Positions 7,584-20,489 of a stretch of DNA of 64,000 bases are shown one piece after another. A program made the position numbers and the translations under genes. Source of the DNA: Candidatus Kapaibacterium sp. Lineage in GTDB: Bacteria > Bacteroidota > Ignavibacteria > Kapaibacteriales > NICIL-2. The stretch lies in contig BPHJ01000001.1 of assembly GCA_026003475.1 (NCBI GenBank), positions 1,115,189-1,179,188 on the forward strand, given 5' to 3'. How positions within the stretch are numbered: the stretch's first letter is position 1; each line of letters begins with the position of its first letter. The notes under the pieces are model-generated. The model made no database searches, was not told the DNA's origin, and saw nothing but the letters and a program-made list of their open reading frames with translations.

Positions 7584-8213
7584 TCAGCCAAAGTTGGAAC
7601 AGAACACGTCCTCGACTGCCGTGGCGACCTGTTCAAGTGCAACTGGCGTGCCAAGTTCACGCTCCATCGAGGTTACCTCGCGATCGGCTATACCGCAGGG
7701 AACAATGCACTCGAATTCACGAAGATCGTTGGCAACGTTGAGCGCAAATCCATGCATCGTAACCCACCGCGAACACCGTATCCCGATTGCGCAAATTTTC
7801 CGCTGTCCTCCGACCCACACTCCCGTCAGCCCAGGAACCTGCTGACCAACAATTCCCCACCGTCCGATTGCTTCGATAATGCAATGCTCGATCTGCCGCA
7901 CAAACCAATGCAAGTCCATCCGAAATTCTGCAAGATTGAAAATCGGATAACCCACAAGCTGCCCCGGATTGTGAAGCGTAACGTCCCCGCCGCGATCGGT
8001 CTCAACCAAATCAATTCCTCGCTGGGAGAGTTCCTCCAGGCTGCAAAGGACATGCGCAGTTGTTCCTGCCCGGCCAACGGTAATCACCGACGGGTGTTCG
8101 CACAGAACCAGCACACTTCCCCGCTGCCCGGCGTGGATTTGCTGCACATATTCGCGCTGCCGCGCCCACGCTTGCCGGTACTCGATCAATCCCCACCGCT
8201 CACAGGTGATCAT
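7584..8213 (-). CDS. lipB: octanoyl-[acyl-carrier-protein]:protein octanoyltransferase (lipoyl synthesis)
   Basis: A 209-residue LipB, which moves octanoyl groups from acyl carrier protein to lipoyl domains before LipA inserts sulfur. The signature RGGDVTLHNPGQLVGYPIF is present. The catalytic lysine is in GGQRKICAIGI, and the acyl-accepting cysteine is in the IVPCGI motif near the C-terminus. The ATG at 8213 overlaps the uvrA stop (ATGA) and is preceded, inside uvrA, by GGAGGAGG, a strong ribosome binding site, so it is translationally coupled to uvrA. An in-frame upstream extension lies wholly inside uvrA and is rejected. No lipA is seen in the window. Confidence 0.95.
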   Translation of the reverse strand: MITCERWGLIEYRQAWARQREYVQQIHAGQRGSVLVLCEHPSVITVGRAGTTAHVLCSLEELSQRGIDLVETDRGGDVTLHNPGQLVGYPIFNLAEFRMDLHWFVRQIEHCIIEAIGRWGIVGQQVPGLTGVWVGGQRKICAIGIRCSRWVTMHGFALNVANDLREFECIVPCGIADREVTSMERELGTPVALEQVATAVEDVFCSNFG

Positions 8214-11026
8214 CGTTTCCTCCTCCGTCGGGTGGGTTTGGATTGCTTGATCTGCGCGAAGAATTCCCTGAGCGCTTTCCCAGTCCACGACTCCTCACAG
8301 GCAGCAACGTCCTCGGGTGTTCCGGTGCACACAACTTTACCCCCGCCGTCTCCTCCTTCTGGGCCGAGGTCAATAATCCAATCGGCTGCTGCAATGACGT
8401 GGAGGTTGTGCTCAATGACAACCACACTCTGCCCCTGCTCAATGAGTCGCTCAAAACAGCCGATCAAGGTTGCCACATCGTGGAGATGTAAACCGGTTGT
8501 TGGCTCGTCGAAGAGGTAGAGCACATGTCCCTTCGCAGCGGTATCGAGGAAGGAGGCAAGCTTGAGTCGTTGTGCCTCTCCGCCACTGAGCGTGACACTC
8601 GATTGACCGAGTCGCAGATATCCAAGCCCTACTTCCTGCAGCAGGCGCAATCGCTGGAGTACTTTCGGCTTCCCCCTGAAAAACGTCGCTGCCTCGTCCA
8701 CGGTCATTGCCAGCACGTCAATGATAGACTTGCCGTTGTAGCGGATGGAGCGTGCTTGCCGCTTGTAGCGCGTTCCACCGCAAGCTTCGCACGGGATTTC
8801 GATGTCCGGAAGAAATTGCATCTCGACCAAAATGCTTCCCGCTCCTTCACACACATCACACCGCCCACCTGGTACGTTGAACGAAAAATGGCTGCTCGTC
8901 CATCCATGCTCCCGTGCATCGGGCGTATCAGCGAACACTTCTCGAATGGCGTCGAACGCTTTCGTATAGGTTGCTGGTGTCGAACGCGATGAACGTCCGA
9001 CCGGTGTCTGATCGACAAGCTCGATGTCATCGAGATGCTCCAACCCCCGTATTTCCTGACAGTGTCCCGCTGGTAGCGACGCGCCACCGAAGTGTTTCTT
9101 GGCATTGGCATAGAGCACCTGTTCAACAAGTGTGCTTTTTCCCGAACCACTGACGCCAGTCACCACGACAAAGCAGTGCAATGGTATCTCGAGCGCTTCG
9201 ATGCGCAGGTTATTCTCCCGCGCTCCAACAATTGTAAGCTTCTGCGTGCACGGCTTACGACGCTTGTGTTCGGACGACACGTATAACCTGTTCGATAGAT
9301 ATGCCCCCGTTAGCGATGTCGGGTGTTTGGCGATTTGTTCAACTGTTCCAGCAGCAACGACCTGTCCGCCTGCCTCGCCCGCGCCCGGACCCATGTCCAC
9401 GATGTAGTCAGCTGCTCGGATAATGTCGGGATCATGCTCGACGACAACAACGGTATTCCCCAGCGATCGAAGCCGTTGCAGCATGGCGATGAGACGATTT
9501 GTGTCGCGCCAGTGGAGACCGATGCTGGGTTCGTCAAGCACGTAGAGCGTGCCGACCAACGTTGAGCCAAGCGATGTTGCAATGCTGAGCCGCTGGGCTT
9601 CCCCACCGCTGAGAGTGTGTGAGACGCGATCGAGTGTCAGATACCCAACGCCGATCTCGCAGAGCAACTGCAATCGCCAGCGAATCTCACGGAGAACATG
9701 CTCAACGATCGCCAACTCAGCAGGCTCAAGCTCCAGGTGATCGAAAAAAAATCGTGCCTGCTCAATCGTCATCGCCAACAGTGTTGGTAAATTGACTCCT
9801 CCAACGAACACCTGCCGCGCCGATCGGCGCAAGCGCGATCCTTGACAACTTGGGCACCGTGTGTACCCGCGATACCGGGCGAGCTGAATCCGATTCTGAA
9901 CCTTGTAGGCGTTGTCCTCGAGATACCTGAAGTAACCCTTGATGCCGATGAAGTGGTCGTCTCCCTCCCAGAGCCACCGATACTGCTCTGGTGTTAGCGT
10001 AGCAATAGGCACATTGACCGGTATCCCCTTTTTGCGTGCTGCGGCGAGCATTTCAGCTTGGATGGGATAATTGCGAAAGGGATGAATCGCACCTGCCGAC
10101 AGCGAGCGCTGACGTTCAGGAATGACCAAGTCCTCATCAATCCCGATTGTTCGTCCAAATCCTTCACACGTCGGACACGCACCGGCTGGACTATTGAACG
10201 AAAACAGCCGTGGTTCGGGCTCAAGGAATCGAATGCCACAGTAGCTGCATTCATAGCGAGGCGAGTAGTAGTATGCCGTCTGTCGAGCAACGCACGCGAC
10301 AAGCACTTTTTCGCCAAGCCGGAATGCAGTCTCGACCGCATCGGTGAGCCGCGTGCGAAACTCGGGATCGTCCCGACGCACTGCCAGCCGATCCACAACA
10401 ACAGCAACAGACGATGGCGCAGGCAGCGAGTTACCGTCACTATCGAGGTGAAGTACTTCCCATGTGTCGAGATTCATGACACGAACAAACCCTGCTGCAA
10501 GCAACGCTTCCCGATCGAAGGCATCAGCACTGAGGGTAAAACCAACGATGATCCGCTCATCACTTTCCCAGGTGAGAACATCGGCAACCACCTGCTGTGG
10601 CGAATCCTTCCGAACCTGCCGTTGGCACTGATGGCAGTACGTTTTTCCGACATGCCCGAAAAGCAGCCGGAGGTAATCGTACACTTCCGTCGTCGTGGCA
10701 ACAATCGAGCGCGGATTTCGTGCAAGCGGCTTTTGCTCCAGGGCGATCGCCGGCGGAAGACCAGTTACTTGCTCGACAGCAGGACGCCCTTTTCGCTCCA
10801 GAAACTGACGTGCATAGGCCGACAGCGATTCCACAAAACGCCGCTGACCTTCGGCATAGAGTGTGTCGAATGCAAGGGACGACTTCCCGGATCCGCTGAC
10901 GCCGGTAATCACGGTCAGCCGATTTCGCGGAATGCTGAGGGAAATATTCTTCAGATTGTTGACCTGAGCACCAACAACTTCGATAGTAGCGGTCGTTCGG
11001 TGCTGGCTGGGTGTCTTGACAGGCAT
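8210..11026 (-). CDS. uvrA: excinuclease ABC subunit A
   Basis: A 938-residue UvrA, the damage-recognition ATPase of nucleotide excision repair. It has the usual tandem ABC arrangement: Walker A GVSGSGKSS near the N-terminus and GVSGSGKST in the second half, two LSGGEAQRL signatures, two DEP Walker B motifs (LDEPSIGLH and FDEPTTGLH), and zinc-binding cysteine pairs (CHQC, CSYC and CPTC, then CDVC and CEAC). The ATG at 11026 gives normal family length. An in-frame GTG at 11092 would start inside the upstream receptor gene and upstream of a good promoter at 11068-11099, so it is disfavoured. lipB follows with a 4-base overlap. Confidence 0.97.
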   Translation of the reverse strand: MPVKTPSQHRTTATIEVVGAQVNNLKNISLSIPRNRLTVITGVSGSGKSSLAFDTLYAEGQRRFVESLSAYARQFLERKGRPAVEQVTGLPPAIALEQKPLARNPRSIVATTTEVYDYLRLLFGHVGKTYCHQCQRQVRKDSPQQVVADVLTWESDERIIVGFTLSADAFDREALLAAGFVRVMNLDTWEVLHLDSDGNSLPAPSSVAVVVDRLAVRRDDPEFRTRLTDAVETAFRLGEKVLVACVARQTAYYYSPRYECSYCGIRFLEPEPRLFSFNSPAGACPTCEGFGRTIGIDEDLVIPERQRSLSAGAIHPFRNYPIQAEMLAAARKKGIPVNVPIATLTPEQYRWLWEGDDHFIGIKGYFRYLEDNAYKVQNRIQLARYRGYTRCPSCQGSRLRRSARQVFVGGVNLPTLLAMTIEQARFFFDHLELEPAELAIVEHVLREIRWRLQLLCEIGVGYLTLDRVSHTLSGGEAQRLSIATSLGSTLVGTLYVLDEPSIGLHWRDTNRLIAMLQRLRSLGNTVVVVEHDPDIIRAADYIVDMGPGAGEAGGQVVAAGTVEQIAKHPTSLTGAYLSNRLYVSSEHKRRKPCTQKLTIVGARENNLRIEALEIPLHCFVVVTGVSGSGKSTLVEQVLYANAKKHFGGASLPAGHCQEIRGLEHLDDIELVDQTPVGRSSRSTPATYTKAFDAIREVFADTPDAREHGWTSSHFSFNVPGGRCDVCEGAGSILVEMQFLPDIEIPCEACGGTRYKRQARSIRYNGKSIIDVLAMTVDEAATFFRGKPKVLQRLRLLQEVGLGYLRLGQSSVTLSGGEAQRLKLASFLDTAAKGHVLYLFDEPTTGLHLHDVATLIGCFERLIEQGQSVVVIEHNLHVIAAADWIIDLGPEGGDGGGKVVCTGTPEDVAACEESWTGKALREFFAQIKQSKPTRRRRKR

Positions 11027-11067: not shown

Positions 11068-11099
11068 CAAAACTACTGGCGCTTATCTCCACCGTGCAA
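11068..11099 (-). promoter_or_regulatory. uvrA promoter (Bacteroidota-type)
   Basis: On the minus strand, TTG (11099-11097) is followed after 21 nt by TAGTTTTG (11075-11068), an exact TAnnTTTG -7 box. The uvrA ATG is about 42 nt further on. The -33 half lies in the end of the receptor gene. It gives uvrA a transcription start independent of the cobalamin riboswitch. Confidence 0.6.
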
Positions 11100-13002
11100 G
11101 AAGGCGTATTCGCCAGCTTCGTCCTGGCATTGGGTAATTGCTGATGATGGCATAGGTAGCATCGAATAAATTGAGGAGCTCACCGCGAAGCTCCACTTCT
11201 ACAGGCCACTCAAGCAGAAGAGCGCGAAGGGATGCATCCACGGTCAGCACTGCCTCCAACGCTGACGATGGTGCATTGTCGGTCTGGCTGTAGCGAGTAC
11301 CCAGGTACGTTGCTTGCACGAGTGCAGCAATACCTCTCCAGAACACACGTTCAGCGCGCACCATCCCGAGAAGCGATGGCGTATAGATCACCTGTTTGCC
11401 GTAGGTGAACGTTGTAGGGTCATCGTAGGTGACCTGTTGATACGTGCCCGATAAGTTCAGATTCCACCCCCCGTCTGCGTACGCTGCCAATAGTTCAACC
11501 CCACGCGAGAGAACGCGACCAGCATTCTGAACCGACCAGGTGAGCGCACTGCGTGGAACGGCAATGATTTGATCACGCACCCAAAGCACGAAGGCATCAG
11601 CTTGAAGGGAGCATGCACCAAGAGTAGCAACTGCTCCACCGCTAACGGTGACGCCGCGTTCTGGCCGAATGGATGTCGAACCAAAATTTTGGTAGTACAG
11701 CTCGTTGAATGATGGGGGGCGGTAGCTCGTTCCTACGCTCAGTCGGAGGGCAAGCGGCACCGATGCACTAATCCATCGCAGATCTACCGAGCCACTGAGT
11801 GCACTCGGGACATCGCTGTAGGCATCGGCACGCAGTGCAGCGCCAAGGCCAAGCACGTACGCTGTAGTTGTGTGGAGCGTTGCACCTGCTTGAGCGGCCA
11901 CGCCCAATTGCACTCGTCGCACAAAGGAGCCTGCTCCACTTCGGTACAGGTTACCGCGCAAGGTGTTTGCGTACAACTCAGCCGCTGGTGCGACGTACCA
12001 GTTGTTGCCATCAATCCGTGACATCTCGAGGACCAGAGCGCCATCGTAGGCGGTGAATTGATCGTCAGCGCCGCTCGGCCCGCGGAAGCGAGCCAGGGAA
12101 TCGCGATAGTGTTGCTGGAACCATCGCACAGCTGCACGCAGCGTCCAGGAAGACTCTTGCCCAAATTGCATCGAACTGATTGTCAGCACTTCACGTTCAT
12201 CCAACCGTGCGGCAGTGTTTTCGATGGCTCCTTGCAAGACTGCGCCTGGTGCCCCGCGTTGACTCGATCGTGCGATGACAGCGACCGATCCGCTCTGCGC
12301 CACGCCAGCAATACGCCATAGCAGCGCACCGCTTGCTAAGAGTGCATCGCCGTTGGTCCGTTCCAGACGACGTCTGACACCGAATTGATCAATGCGGAAA
12401 GGATAGTTCCCTTGCGAGTATTGAACGTCCGCCAGTGCTGTGATCGTGTGGTTGCCGGGGTGGATTGTCGCTTGGAGCGTGCCGCATCGTTCCCCAAATG
12501 CTCCGAGTGCTCCACTTGCGATAACTCCGCTGGACTGCTGCCGGAGAGACAGGAGCACCGTTCCTCCGACCGCATGGGCGCCCCATCGTGCACTTTGGCT
12601 TCCACGTTCGATGGTCAGGTTCTCAAGCAGCGCCAGCGGTATTTGCCCTAAGTCCACCAAACCATTGGCAATCGAATTGAGTCGAATACCATCGAGCACA
12701 ACTGCCGTCTGCGCTGCGGTTGCGCCACGAATCGAAATCGTCTTGAGTCCACCCAATCCTCCATAGTTCCGTACAAAAACACCCGGCAGTCCTTGCGCAG
12801 CATCAGCAACGGTTGTGGCGGGCAATTGATCCAATCTCGCACGCGGCAGCTCCACACGAGGAATTGCAACAACGACGGGAGCTCCAAGCGAATCTTCCAC
12901 GAGAACAGGCCGAAAGACAACGCGAGCAGAGTCCTCGCGTTGTGCAATGAGCTGCACAGTTGCAACCGCTACGACGAGGACCTGTCCGCACCAACGATAC
13001 AT
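11083..13002 (-). CDS. TonB-dependent outer-membrane receptor, probably for cobalamin (BtuB-like)
   Basis: 639 residues with a signal peptide (ending LIAQ), an N-terminal plug domain containing GLPGVFVRNYGGLGG and SIRGATAAQTAVVLDG, and a long C-terminal beta-barrel with alternating aromatic strands (for example SVGTSYRPPSFNELYYQNFG). This is the BtuB/CirA-like receptor class, powered by TonB. The immediately upstream gene encodes a BtuG-like propeller lipoprotein and the pair lies behind a cobalamin riboswitch, so cobalamin or a corrinoid is the likely substrate; the sequence alone does not prove it. The ATG at 13002 is 10 bp past the upstream stop; an earlier frame opening overlaps that gene. 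Confidence 0.85.
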   Translation of the reverse strand: MYRWCGQVLVVAVATVQLIAQREDSARVVFRPVLVEDSLGAPVVVAIPRVELPRARLDQLPATTVADAAQGLPGVFVRNYGGLGGLKTISIRGATAAQTAVVLDGIRLNSIANGLVDLGQIPLALLENLTIERGSQSARWGAHAVGGTVLLSLRQQSSGVIASGALGAFGERCGTLQATIHPGNHTITALADVQYSQGNYPFRIDQFGVRRRLERTNGDALLASGALLWRIAGVAQSGSVAVIARSSQRGAPGAVLQGAIENTAARLDEREVLTISSMQFGQESSWTLRAAVRWFQQHYRDSLARFRGPSGADDQFTAYDGALVLEMSRIDGNNWYVAPAAELYANTLRGNLYRSGAGSFVRRVQLGVAAQAGATLHTTTAYVLGLGAALRADAYSDVPSALSGSVDLRWISASVPLALRLSVGTSYRPPSFNELYYQNFGSTSIRPERGVTVSGGAVATLGACSLQADAFVLWVRDQIIAVPRSALTWSVQNAGRVLSRGVELLAAYADGGWNLNLSGTYQQVTYDDPTTFTYGKQVIYTPSLLGMVRAERVFWRGIAALVQATYLGTRYSQTDNAPSSALEAVLTVDASLRALLLEWPVEVELRGELLNLFDATYAIISNYPMPGRSWRIRLLARWR

Positions 13003-13012
13003 TGCGATCACG

Positions 13013-14107
13013 TCAGAAGACCACTGCTCGCACCGGCGCAACTCCACAATTGTACTCGCGCACGCGTTGCCCGTTTGGATTGAGCACGATCACCCGCCCA
13101 TTGCTTTGGTAGTCCCGGGCATCGAAGAGCAGAAACGTCCCATCGAGCCGATTGATAGCGAATCCGTTTGCTGTGACATCGGAAGGAAGGGGTATGGATA
13201 TTGGACTGCTCGATGGTTGCGATAGATCAAAGCGCAAGATGTTTTTCGCACCGTAAGTCTGTGGGTCGTAGTCGAGGGCATAGAGAGCATTCCCGTAATA
13301 CTGAAGCGACCCACCACACCGCAAGCGCCACCGGCGTACTTCTTGGAAGGTGGTCGCATCGTACTCAATGATTCCTTGCAGTGAGTCAGGTTGGCTAAAC
13401 AGGTGTTGGTAGAATGCATAGAGCCGCCGCCCATCGGTAGAGGCAACAACTTCCCGAACATTCGGTCCAGCAGCAAGGTAGCGTTCCACCTGCTTTTTTT
13501 CAAGGTTCACCACAGCAATTGTCCCTGCATGCGGTTCGCCCTGTCGCAGATCGCCATAACCACTATTGGCGACGAAAGCGTAGTTGCCGATAACTGCCAC
13601 ACCCTCGGTAGCCGGTCCCGTGGTAATGGTCGCCGTTAGCGTGAGTGTGGTCGGATTGAAAAGTGCAATACCATCGCCGTTGGTTGTGCTCACCACCCCA
13701 AGCGACGGCGACACGAGCGTAATGCGCCACGGCTCGCTGGAGCCAGTCAGTTGAATTCGCCCAACGGATCGCCCCGTGCGAATGTTGATCGCTTCGATTG
13801 TTTTGGAGGTTGTCACCGTTACGAAGGCAGTGTCCCCCTTGAGGGCAATATCATTGGCTGTTGCACCGAGTTTTTGCCCGTTGTTTGCAGCAGCGAACCA
13901 ATCCTGCACGACTTGGCCTGTGCGAAAGTCAATGCGTGTAAGGCTTGCGTTGTCTTGTCCGAAGGTCCCTTGGTTGACGATGATCGCCACACTATCAGGA
14001 GGTGTTGCTGTGACGGGTGGCTCTGTTGGCGTGTTTGACTGGCACGCCCACAACAAGCAGAGGAGGCAAATTGCCGCACGATGCAGCATGGAGACATAGT
14101 TCCGCAT
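13013..14107 (-). CDS. BtuG-like beta-propeller surface lipoprotein (predicted cobalamin binder)
   Basis: 364 residues. A short export signal ends in LLCLLWAC, a probable lipobox (Trp at -2 is unusual), followed by a Thr/Pro-rich linker. The rest consists of repeating propeller blades of the YncE/DUF5074 kind, each with a segment such as TIEAINIRTGRSVGRI, GIALFNPTTLTLTATI or TIAVVNLEKKQVERYL. Surface propeller lipoproteins next to BtuB in Bacteroidota (BtuG) capture cobalamin with very high affinity. Here the gene is first in an operon with the receptor and directly follows a cobalamin riboswitch, which supports that role. GGAG 5 nt upstream supports the ATG at 14107; an ATG at 14089 is possible. 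Function by analogy only. Confidence 0.75.
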   Translation of the reverse strand: MRNYVSMLHRAAICLLCLLWACQSNTPTEPPVTATPPDSVAIIVNQGTFGQDNASLTRIDFRTGQVVQDWFAAANNGQKLGATANDIALKGDTAFVTVTTSKTIEAINIRTGRSVGRIQLTGSSEPWRITLVSPSLGVVSTTNGDGIALFNPTTLTLTATITTGPATEGVAVIGNYAFVANSGYGDLRQGEPHAGTIAVVNLEKKQVERYLAAGPNVREVVASTDGRRLYAFYQHLFSQPDSLQGIIEYDATTFQEVRRWRLRCGGSLQYYGNALYALDYDPQTYGAKNILRFDLSQPSSSPISIPLPSDVTANGFAINRLDGTFLLFDARDYQSNGRVIVLNPNGQRVREYNCGVAPVRAVVF

Positions 14108-14112
14108 GGGTA

Positions 14113-14153
14113 CTCCGAAAATGGTTGAACATCCCACTTGCGCCAACAAGTGG
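14113..14153 (-). promoter_or_regulatory. hairpin near the ribosome binding site of the btuG-like gene (candidate P13/L13)
   Basis: On the minus strand, CCACTTG/CAAGTGG (14153-14147 and 14140-14134) closes the loop TTGGCG. The Shine-Dalgarno GGAG (14116-14113) follows 17 nt later and the ATG 5 nt after that. The loop region GGCGCAA is complementary to TTGCGCC in the riboswitch L5 region (14374-14368). This is the expected position of the L13 partner that lets ligand binding block translation. Confidence 0.6.
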
Positions 14154-14218
14154 CATTGGAAAAGAAACACGGAGAGAACTCCAGCGGACACAACAGTAGG
14201 ATGCTCGCGGGAGCGTCT

Positions 14219-14262
14219 CTCATCGCGCTGTTGGCGCAGCGCTGTACAGGCGTACTGATGAG
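14219..14262 (-). promoter_or_regulatory. intermediate hairpin of the riboswitch expression platform
   Basis: On the minus strand an outer stem CTCATC/GATGAG and an inner stem GCGCTG/CAGCGC enclose the loop CGCCAA. The stretch TGCGCCAACA across this loop is exactly complementary over 10 nt to TGTTGGCGCA in the downstream hairpin, so the two loops can pair. It begins 1 nt after the P1 3' arm of the riboswitch. No U-run follows, which argues for translational rather than transcriptional control. Confidence 0.5.
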
Positions 14263-14263
14263 C

Positions 14264-14439
14264 ATTGCAGGCAGGTCTTCCGGCTTCGGGGTCATCCTCG
14301 GCGTTCGCCTTCCCACAGCAACGATGGCTGCAGTGGCATCTGTGAACGCGTTGTCACCCGTAACGGCGGCGCAACCGCGCAGGATTTGCACCTGCTTCCC
14401 TATTCTCCTGCATCCGCACGCGGAGCAGGCACCTGCAAT
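14264..14439 (-). promoter_or_regulatory. cobalamin (AdoCbl-type) riboswitch aptamer
   Basis: About 176 nt on the minus strand. A perfect 8-bp P1 stem is formed by ATTGCAGG (14439-14432) and CCTGCAAT (14271-14264). Class signatures follow in order: GGTGCC just after P1, then GGGAAGCAGGTGCAAATCC, GCGG...CCGCC forming P5/L5, GCCACTG, GGGAAGGCG, and finally the B12 box AGCCGGAAGACCTGCC at 14285-14270. These are the conserved elements of the cobalamin riboswitch (Rfam family 'Cobalamin'). It lies in the leader of the BtuG-like/BtuB-like operon, which it should repress when cobalamin is abundant. Confidence 0.95.
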
Positions 14440-14449
14440 GAACGCAACG

Positions 14450-14457
14450 CAAAAATA
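14450..14457 (-). promoter_or_regulatory. -7 box of the cobalamin operon promoter
   Basis: TATTTTTG on the minus strand, an exact TAnnTTTG match, 11 nt before the riboswitch P1 stem, placing the transcription start just ahead of the aptamer. No clear TTG -33 element is seen at 18-21 nt. Confidence 0.55.
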
Positions 14458-20053: not shown

Positions 20054-20489
20054 GAACGGGCGGGAAGTCCGTGCAGCCGCGCTGGTTCTTTCGAGCCAGT
20101 GAGGAAAGTCCGGACACCACCACGCAGCGTGCTCGATAACGTCGAGGCGGCAATGCAATCGCCCCGTCGCGATGCAAAGCCGACGGATAGTGCCACAGAA
20201 ACAATACCGCCCCGACCGCATGTCGGTTGGGGTAAGGGTGAAATGGTGCGGTAAGAGCGCACCGCACACGTGGTGACACGTGTGGCAGGGAAAACCCCAC
20301 GCGGTGCAAGACCGAGCAGATGCGTTTGTCCTGCGGCGTGGCAGGCGCTTCCTTCTGGGAAGCACGCATCGGGTAGGTCGCACAGGAGCGGCGCAGCAAT
20401 GCACCCGCCAAGGTTCATGGCTGCAGGCGTGTCCTCACCCCGAGGGGGACCGTCACAGAATCCGGCTTACAGGACTTTTCGCCCGTTCG
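20053..20489 (+). ncRNA. rnpB: RNase P RNA (bacterial type A)
   Basis: The catalytic RNA of RNase P, which trims tRNA 5' leaders. P1 is a perfect 9-bp helix from GAACGGGCG (20054-20062) and CGCCCGTTC (20480-20488). The P4 strands are visible as GAGGAAAGTCCGGAC (20101-20115) and ACAGAATCCGGCTTAC (20455-20470). Other conserved blocks include GGTAAGGGTGAAA and AGGGAAAACCCC. A T-run (20490-20495) right after P1 should end the transcript. The RNA starts at the stop codon of the zinc-ribbon gene, with no recognisable promoter between them, so it may be processed from that mRNA or use a promoter inside the gene. Confidence 0.96.

Follow-up and report, generated by a model that had tools for sequence, protein, structure and literature searches.

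The lid-and-pore device for vitamin B12 was described from gut Bacteroides, where it has been discussed as a trait for competition in the gut. In the part of the structural study considered here (PMC10404256), BtuG2 is credited with 13 hydrogen bonds, and the contacts named are Trp194, Trp272, Tyr316, Tyr335, and Tyr239. Tyr335 hydrogen-bonds the adenosyl group, and Trp194, Trp272, and Tyr316 belong to the upper-ligand pocket. The same part of that study gives BtuG2 a charge of -18, describes its long-range electrostatic capture, and credits the extracellular Tyr538 loop of BtuB3 with dislodging B12. Among gut strains, BtuG was found only in Bacteroidetes (Wexler et al., PMC6143338). With regard to the inner membrane, BtuB is present and BtuCDF absent in many cobalamin-auxotrophic Gram-negative bacteria (PMC6072759).

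Here, we analyzed a window of 64,000 nucleotides from Candidatus Kapaibacterium sp. We computed riboswitch identity, gene order, homology to BtuG and BtuB, fold, conservation of the unit, and the presence of B12-dependent enzymes. The locus is very probably a B12-repressed btuG-btuB operon of a cobalamin auxotroph belonging to the Kapabacteria (Bacteroidota). When B12 is scarce, the riboswitch would permit expression of a propeller lipoprotein together with its receptor. Once exposed at the cell surface, the BtuG-type lipoprotein would form a lid on the BtuB-type receptor, capture corrinoids in the funnel of its propeller, and hand them to BtuB, a TonB-dependent receptor that would import them across the outer membrane.

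Organization of the locus

The unit lies on the minus strand of the window and consists of the following features:

14451..14253, minus strand: cobalamin riboswitch aptamer (RF00174), a full-length cmscan match
14095..14252, minus strand: probable expression platform, predicted from sequence, genus alignment, and folds
14107..13013, minus strand: btuG-like gene for a 364-aa beta-propeller lipoprotein, from DUF5074, BtuG matches, and an AlphaFold model
13002..11083, minus strand: btuB-like gene for a 639-aa TonB-dependent outer-membrane receptor with plug and barrel, from PF07715, PF00593, and PDB matches

Read 5' to 3' on the minus strand, the aptamer is separated from the propeller open reading frame (364 codons) by 145 nt. 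After a gap of 10 nt, the receptor frame (639 codons) runs from ATG 13002 to 11083. An initial annotation of this DNA had described a cobalamin riboswitch in the leader, followed by a beta-propeller lipoprotein adjoining a TonB receptor, and had read the two genes as a BtuG-like and BtuB-like pair. These features were all recovered, and the covariance model, the sequence matches, and the fold matches support that reading. The interval it had assigned, 13013-14457, spans the riboswitch and the propeller and leaves out the receptor.

Downstream and likewise on the minus strand, uvrA (window 8210-11026, likely ATG at 11026) begins 57 nt past the stop codon of btuB. A terminator-like site was looked for in the interval between btuB and uvrA, and none was found. 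Among 59 related loci, a UvrA homologue is close to btuG/btuB in 12. Elsewhere in the window, a bacterial class A RNase P RNA is found at 20061-20485 on the plus strand (262.8 bits).

Riboswitch and leader

The aptamer matched RF00174 over model positions 1-189 of 189 at window 14253-14451 on the minus strand, with a score of 108.8 bits (gathering threshold, 31.5 bits) and an E value of 2.6e-26. It was the only cobalamin riboswitch that the Rfam Cobalamin model found in the 2.16-Mb single-contig genome.

The leader plausibly exerts translational control of btuG. Its platform comprises an L13-type hairpin (GCGCUG-CGCCAA-CAGCGC), a second hairpin (CCACUUG-UUGGCG-CAAGUGG), and then a Shine-Dalgarno-like CGGAG and the AUG. 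Within the loop region of the second hairpin, just upstream of the Shine-Dalgarno-like site of btuG, a 10-nt stretch (TGTTGGCGCA) is perfectly complementary to the L13 region (TGCGCCAACA). When the downstream sequence was shuffled 20,000 times, a complement at least this long arose in 24 cases. In the genus alignment, the complement is identical in two members, diverged in one, and absent in one. The lowest-energy fold pairs an upstream strand with CGGAG and the AUG, and an alternative fold contains the 10-bp pairing. Since these folds are nearly equal in energy (-56.2 and -55.8 kcal/mol) and differ little in how the start region is paired, the energies leave the direction of switching unsettled. 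A factor-independent terminator was also considered as the expression platform; its single weak match was no better than those in shuffled sequence.

The propeller and its putative corrinoid pocket

The propeller has an N-terminal signal peptide followed by a lipobox, starting MRNYVSMLHRAAICLLCLLWAC and then Q, with the junction between LLWA and CQSNTP. No lysine/acidic export motif was found after the lipid cysteine in CQSNTPTEP, and this Bacteroidetes signal may not apply to the class. Pfam assigns the protein to DUF5074 (PF16819; 31 bits, cutoff 27.2). As a single phmmer query against the PDB, it matched BtuG1 (8ptf, E = 8e-21; 8blw_B, E = 7e-20). With a profile of 26 propeller homologues, the match to BtuG1 reached 1e-51 and those to BtuG2 and BtuG3 about 1e-38; the best non-BtuG match, an archaeal surface-layer propeller, stood at 8e-16.

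The initial annotation had proposed comparing a predicted structure with BtuG, and the outcome favors its reading. With an AlphaFold model built from the 26-sequence alignment (pLDDT 90, pTM 0.84), BtuG entries took places 1-16 in Foldseek. They also took ranks 1-11 in VIA, with Z scores of 36.2-40.2; the next structure scored 33.9. Many unrelated propellers score near 30 against the model. Because propellers resemble one another, the argument does not rest on Z by itself but on the drop below the BtuG entries and on sequence and fold pointing the same way. Among the BtuGs, the nearest solved relative is BtuG1. Taken together, the sequence matches and the modeled fold support the identification of the propeller as a BtuG homologue and, with it, the function proposed. 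The suggestion that its blades diverge from the gut versions holds in degree, at 25-28% identity to BtuG1, BtuG2, and BtuG3, but BtuG1 and BtuG2 are themselves only 23% identical.

We examined the pocket by aligning the homologues from the order (26 rows) with BtuG1-3 sequences taken from the rows of the PDB-match alignment. Of the BtuG2 contacts named in the part of the study considered above, Tyr335 corresponds to Tyr333 and Tyr239 to Tyr233. Trp194 is replaced by Ser182, as by Ser in BtuG1; Trp272 falls in a gap shared with BtuG1; and Tyr316 aligns with Asn314, where BtuG1 has Phe. Glu180 of BtuG2 aligns with Glu168, and Glu is retained at this position throughout BtuG1-3 and in 26/26 homologues from the order. 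Asn62 of BtuG2 (Asn53 in the window's propeller) and several glycines are shared in the same way. For the contacts so named, the alignment leans toward a BtuG1-like pocket. The mature propeller has a net charge of -1, compared to -18 for BtuG2 and -11 for BtuG1, computed from the aligned rows. Long-range electrostatic capture of the BtuG2 kind is not predicted for a protein so close to neutral.

The receptor

The receptor contains a plug (PF07715) and a barrel (PF00593). All ten of its PDB matches with E < 1e-20 are BtuB, led by BtuB1 (8blw_A, E = 1.3e-36) and followed by BtuB3 and Escherichia coli BtuB. The first non-BtuB receptor, a PQQ transporter, appears at 1.5e-8. For the product of the btuB-like gene, the best NCBIfam model is TIGR01779 (TonB-B12), at 121.6 bits against an unreached cutoff of 599.7 that may not admit BtuB of the Bacteroidota type. 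In the extracellular loop, this protein has a Trp that aligns with Tyr538 of BtuB3, as numbered in the structural account considered above, and with Trp in BtuB1; the corresponding loop of E. coli BtuB aligns with three fewer residues. Since TonB receptors often carry aromatic residues ahead of the NxG motif, the loop Trp adds weak support for BtuB. Overall, these matches support a BtuB-type receptor.

Conservation and taxonomy

A propeller homologue was found in 79 of the 80 relatives searched and a cobalamin riboswitch in 68. In each of the five other genus loci that we examined, and in two further genera of the family, the propeller is followed by the receptor. Upstream of btuG, the riboswitch occurs in four members of the genus and in a sister genus, such that the riboswitch-btuG-btuB unit recurs in both. 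In more distant relatives, the order is often receptor, a protein of about 300 aa, and propeller. Longer operons (loci L058, L060, L076, and similar) carry a T9SS-tailed protein of about 450 aa and the uncharacterized 300-aa protein beside btuB/btuG.

The pair had been thought to extend the BtuG strategy to another phylum. That part of the initial annotation does not stand. Among named relatives, the closest are Candidatus Kapabacteria/Kapaibacterium and metagenome-assembled genomes (MAGs) titled "Chlorobiota bacterium," and NCBI taxonomy places Kapaibacterium in the phylum Bacteroidota, class Eximiradiia. NCBI treats "Chlorobiota," the name used in some of the MAG titles, as a phylum of its own, and the assignment therefore varies from record to record. 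The unit joins the known BtuG-BtuB system within the same broad phylum and is not a jump to a new one. Of 296 genomes sampled across this phylum, 152 contain propeller homologues, although some of those homologues may not be BtuG. At the level of phylum, BtuG in an environmental class of Bacteroidota agrees with the survey of Wexler et al. (PMC6143338). Among the papers searched, none reported BtuG in Kapabacteria or Ignavibacteria.

B12 demand and the inner membrane

The genome check for B12-dependent enzymes, also proposed in the initial annotation, turned up three PF02310 matches above its cutoff. One is a methylmalonyl-CoA mutase (1116 bits, cutoff 876). A second protein (L092:1129-2907), of MetH type, covers only TIGR02082 positions 611-1182, the cobalamin-binding and activation half of MetH, which appears from sequence to be split in this genome. 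The third (L093:421-1854, minus strand) corresponds only to the N-terminal half of IcmF, with the B12-binding and GTPase portions of fused isobutyryl-CoA mutase. MetE (PF01717) had no match in the genome. Only two TP_methylase proteins were found, fewer than the pathway would be expected to need to build the corrin ring de novo.

In the same genome, estimated to be 95.3% complete, FecCD (BtuC-type), Peripla_BP_2 (BtuF-type), CbiQ, and SbmA_BacA had no match, and FecCD was not found in five other genus members searched. Across the 59 related loci, no inner-membrane importer gene recurs near btuG/btuB; the EamA permease seen upstream of btuB is confined to one subgroup. The lack of a BtuCDF match marks a concrete gap in the passage of B12 across the inner membrane, and it follows the known pattern of BtuB without BtuCDF (PMC6072759). 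We tentatively suggest that this lineage may pair BtuB-BtuG with an importer other than BtuCDF, an ECF module, or SbmA/BacA. Candidates are a BtuM-like solitary carrier, none of which is reported in the lineage, or an undescribed transporter.

Alternative explanations and implications

It could be argued that the propeller belongs to the DUF5074/YncE-type lipoproteins and has some other function, related for example to heme, a metal, or a quinone, and that it merely shares a B12-regulated operon with BtuB. Pfam names only DUF5074, propellers are alike enough for many unrelated ones to score near 30, and three of the pocket aromatics named for BtuG2 in the partial account are absent. Nevertheless, BtuG accounts for all the top matches in sequence and in fold, Z falls clearly after the BtuG entries, and the order of riboswitch, btuG, and btuB is conserved in the genus and a sister genus, making this reading improbable. 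Even less probable is a siderophore or heme receptor behind a remnant riboswitch. While the TonB-B12 score is under its curated cutoff, that family is still the receptor's best, every PDB match with E < 1e-20 is BtuB, and the riboswitch is full length and conserved in relatives.

The cargo is a separate matter. A BtuG-BtuB operon whose preferred cargo is cobinamide or a cobamide other than cobalamin would refine our explanation and is compatible with it. The part of the structural study considered here reports that BtuG2 binds several corrinoids, including cobinamide (PMC10404256), and the sequence contains nothing that would specify the lower ligand. We encountered no counterevidence; the riboswitch family takes its name from cobalamin, but its selectivity in this organism may differ. 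We regard another preferred cargo as possible, albeit unlikely. The B12-repressed btuG-btuB operon remains our preferred explanation. Given that the device is present in an environmental class, where nearly every relative sampled has a propeller homologue, an origin in the gut becomes less likely. The unit also offers a minimal two-gene version of BtuG-BtuB for study.

Comparison with known systems

BtuB1-BtuG1 of Bacteroides thetaiotaomicron (PDB 8blw, 8ptd, 8ptf) is the best match for both proteins in the window. Both systems have an adjoining TonB receptor and propeller lipoprotein, the propellers being about 28% identical. They have in common an NSG motif, in place of which BtuG2 and BtuG3 have CWS, and the aligned Trp of the receptor loop. 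Unlike BtuB1-BtuG1, the window unit has no C-terminal BtuH domain, places btuG before btuB, has a near-neutral lid, and includes no further accessory gene between the riboswitch and uvrA. Compared to BtuG2 (BT1954; PDB 8bai, 8bmy, 8bmz) and BtuG3 (8okv, 8p97), the fold is the same (Z 36-38), whereas the MKWD-type export signal is missing. Among the BtuG2 contacts named in the partial account, only the two tyrosines, 335 and 239, have retained equivalents, and the net charge of -1 contrasts with -18. Finally, the longer riboswitch-associated operons in Kapabacteria/Ignavibacteria MAGs encode a 450-aa T9SS-tailed protein, BtuB, a protein of about 300 aa, and BtuG. As in the window, their BtuG and BtuB homologues lie side by side or one gene apart. 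Relative to those operons, the genus represented here has the two-gene version, with the order reversed.
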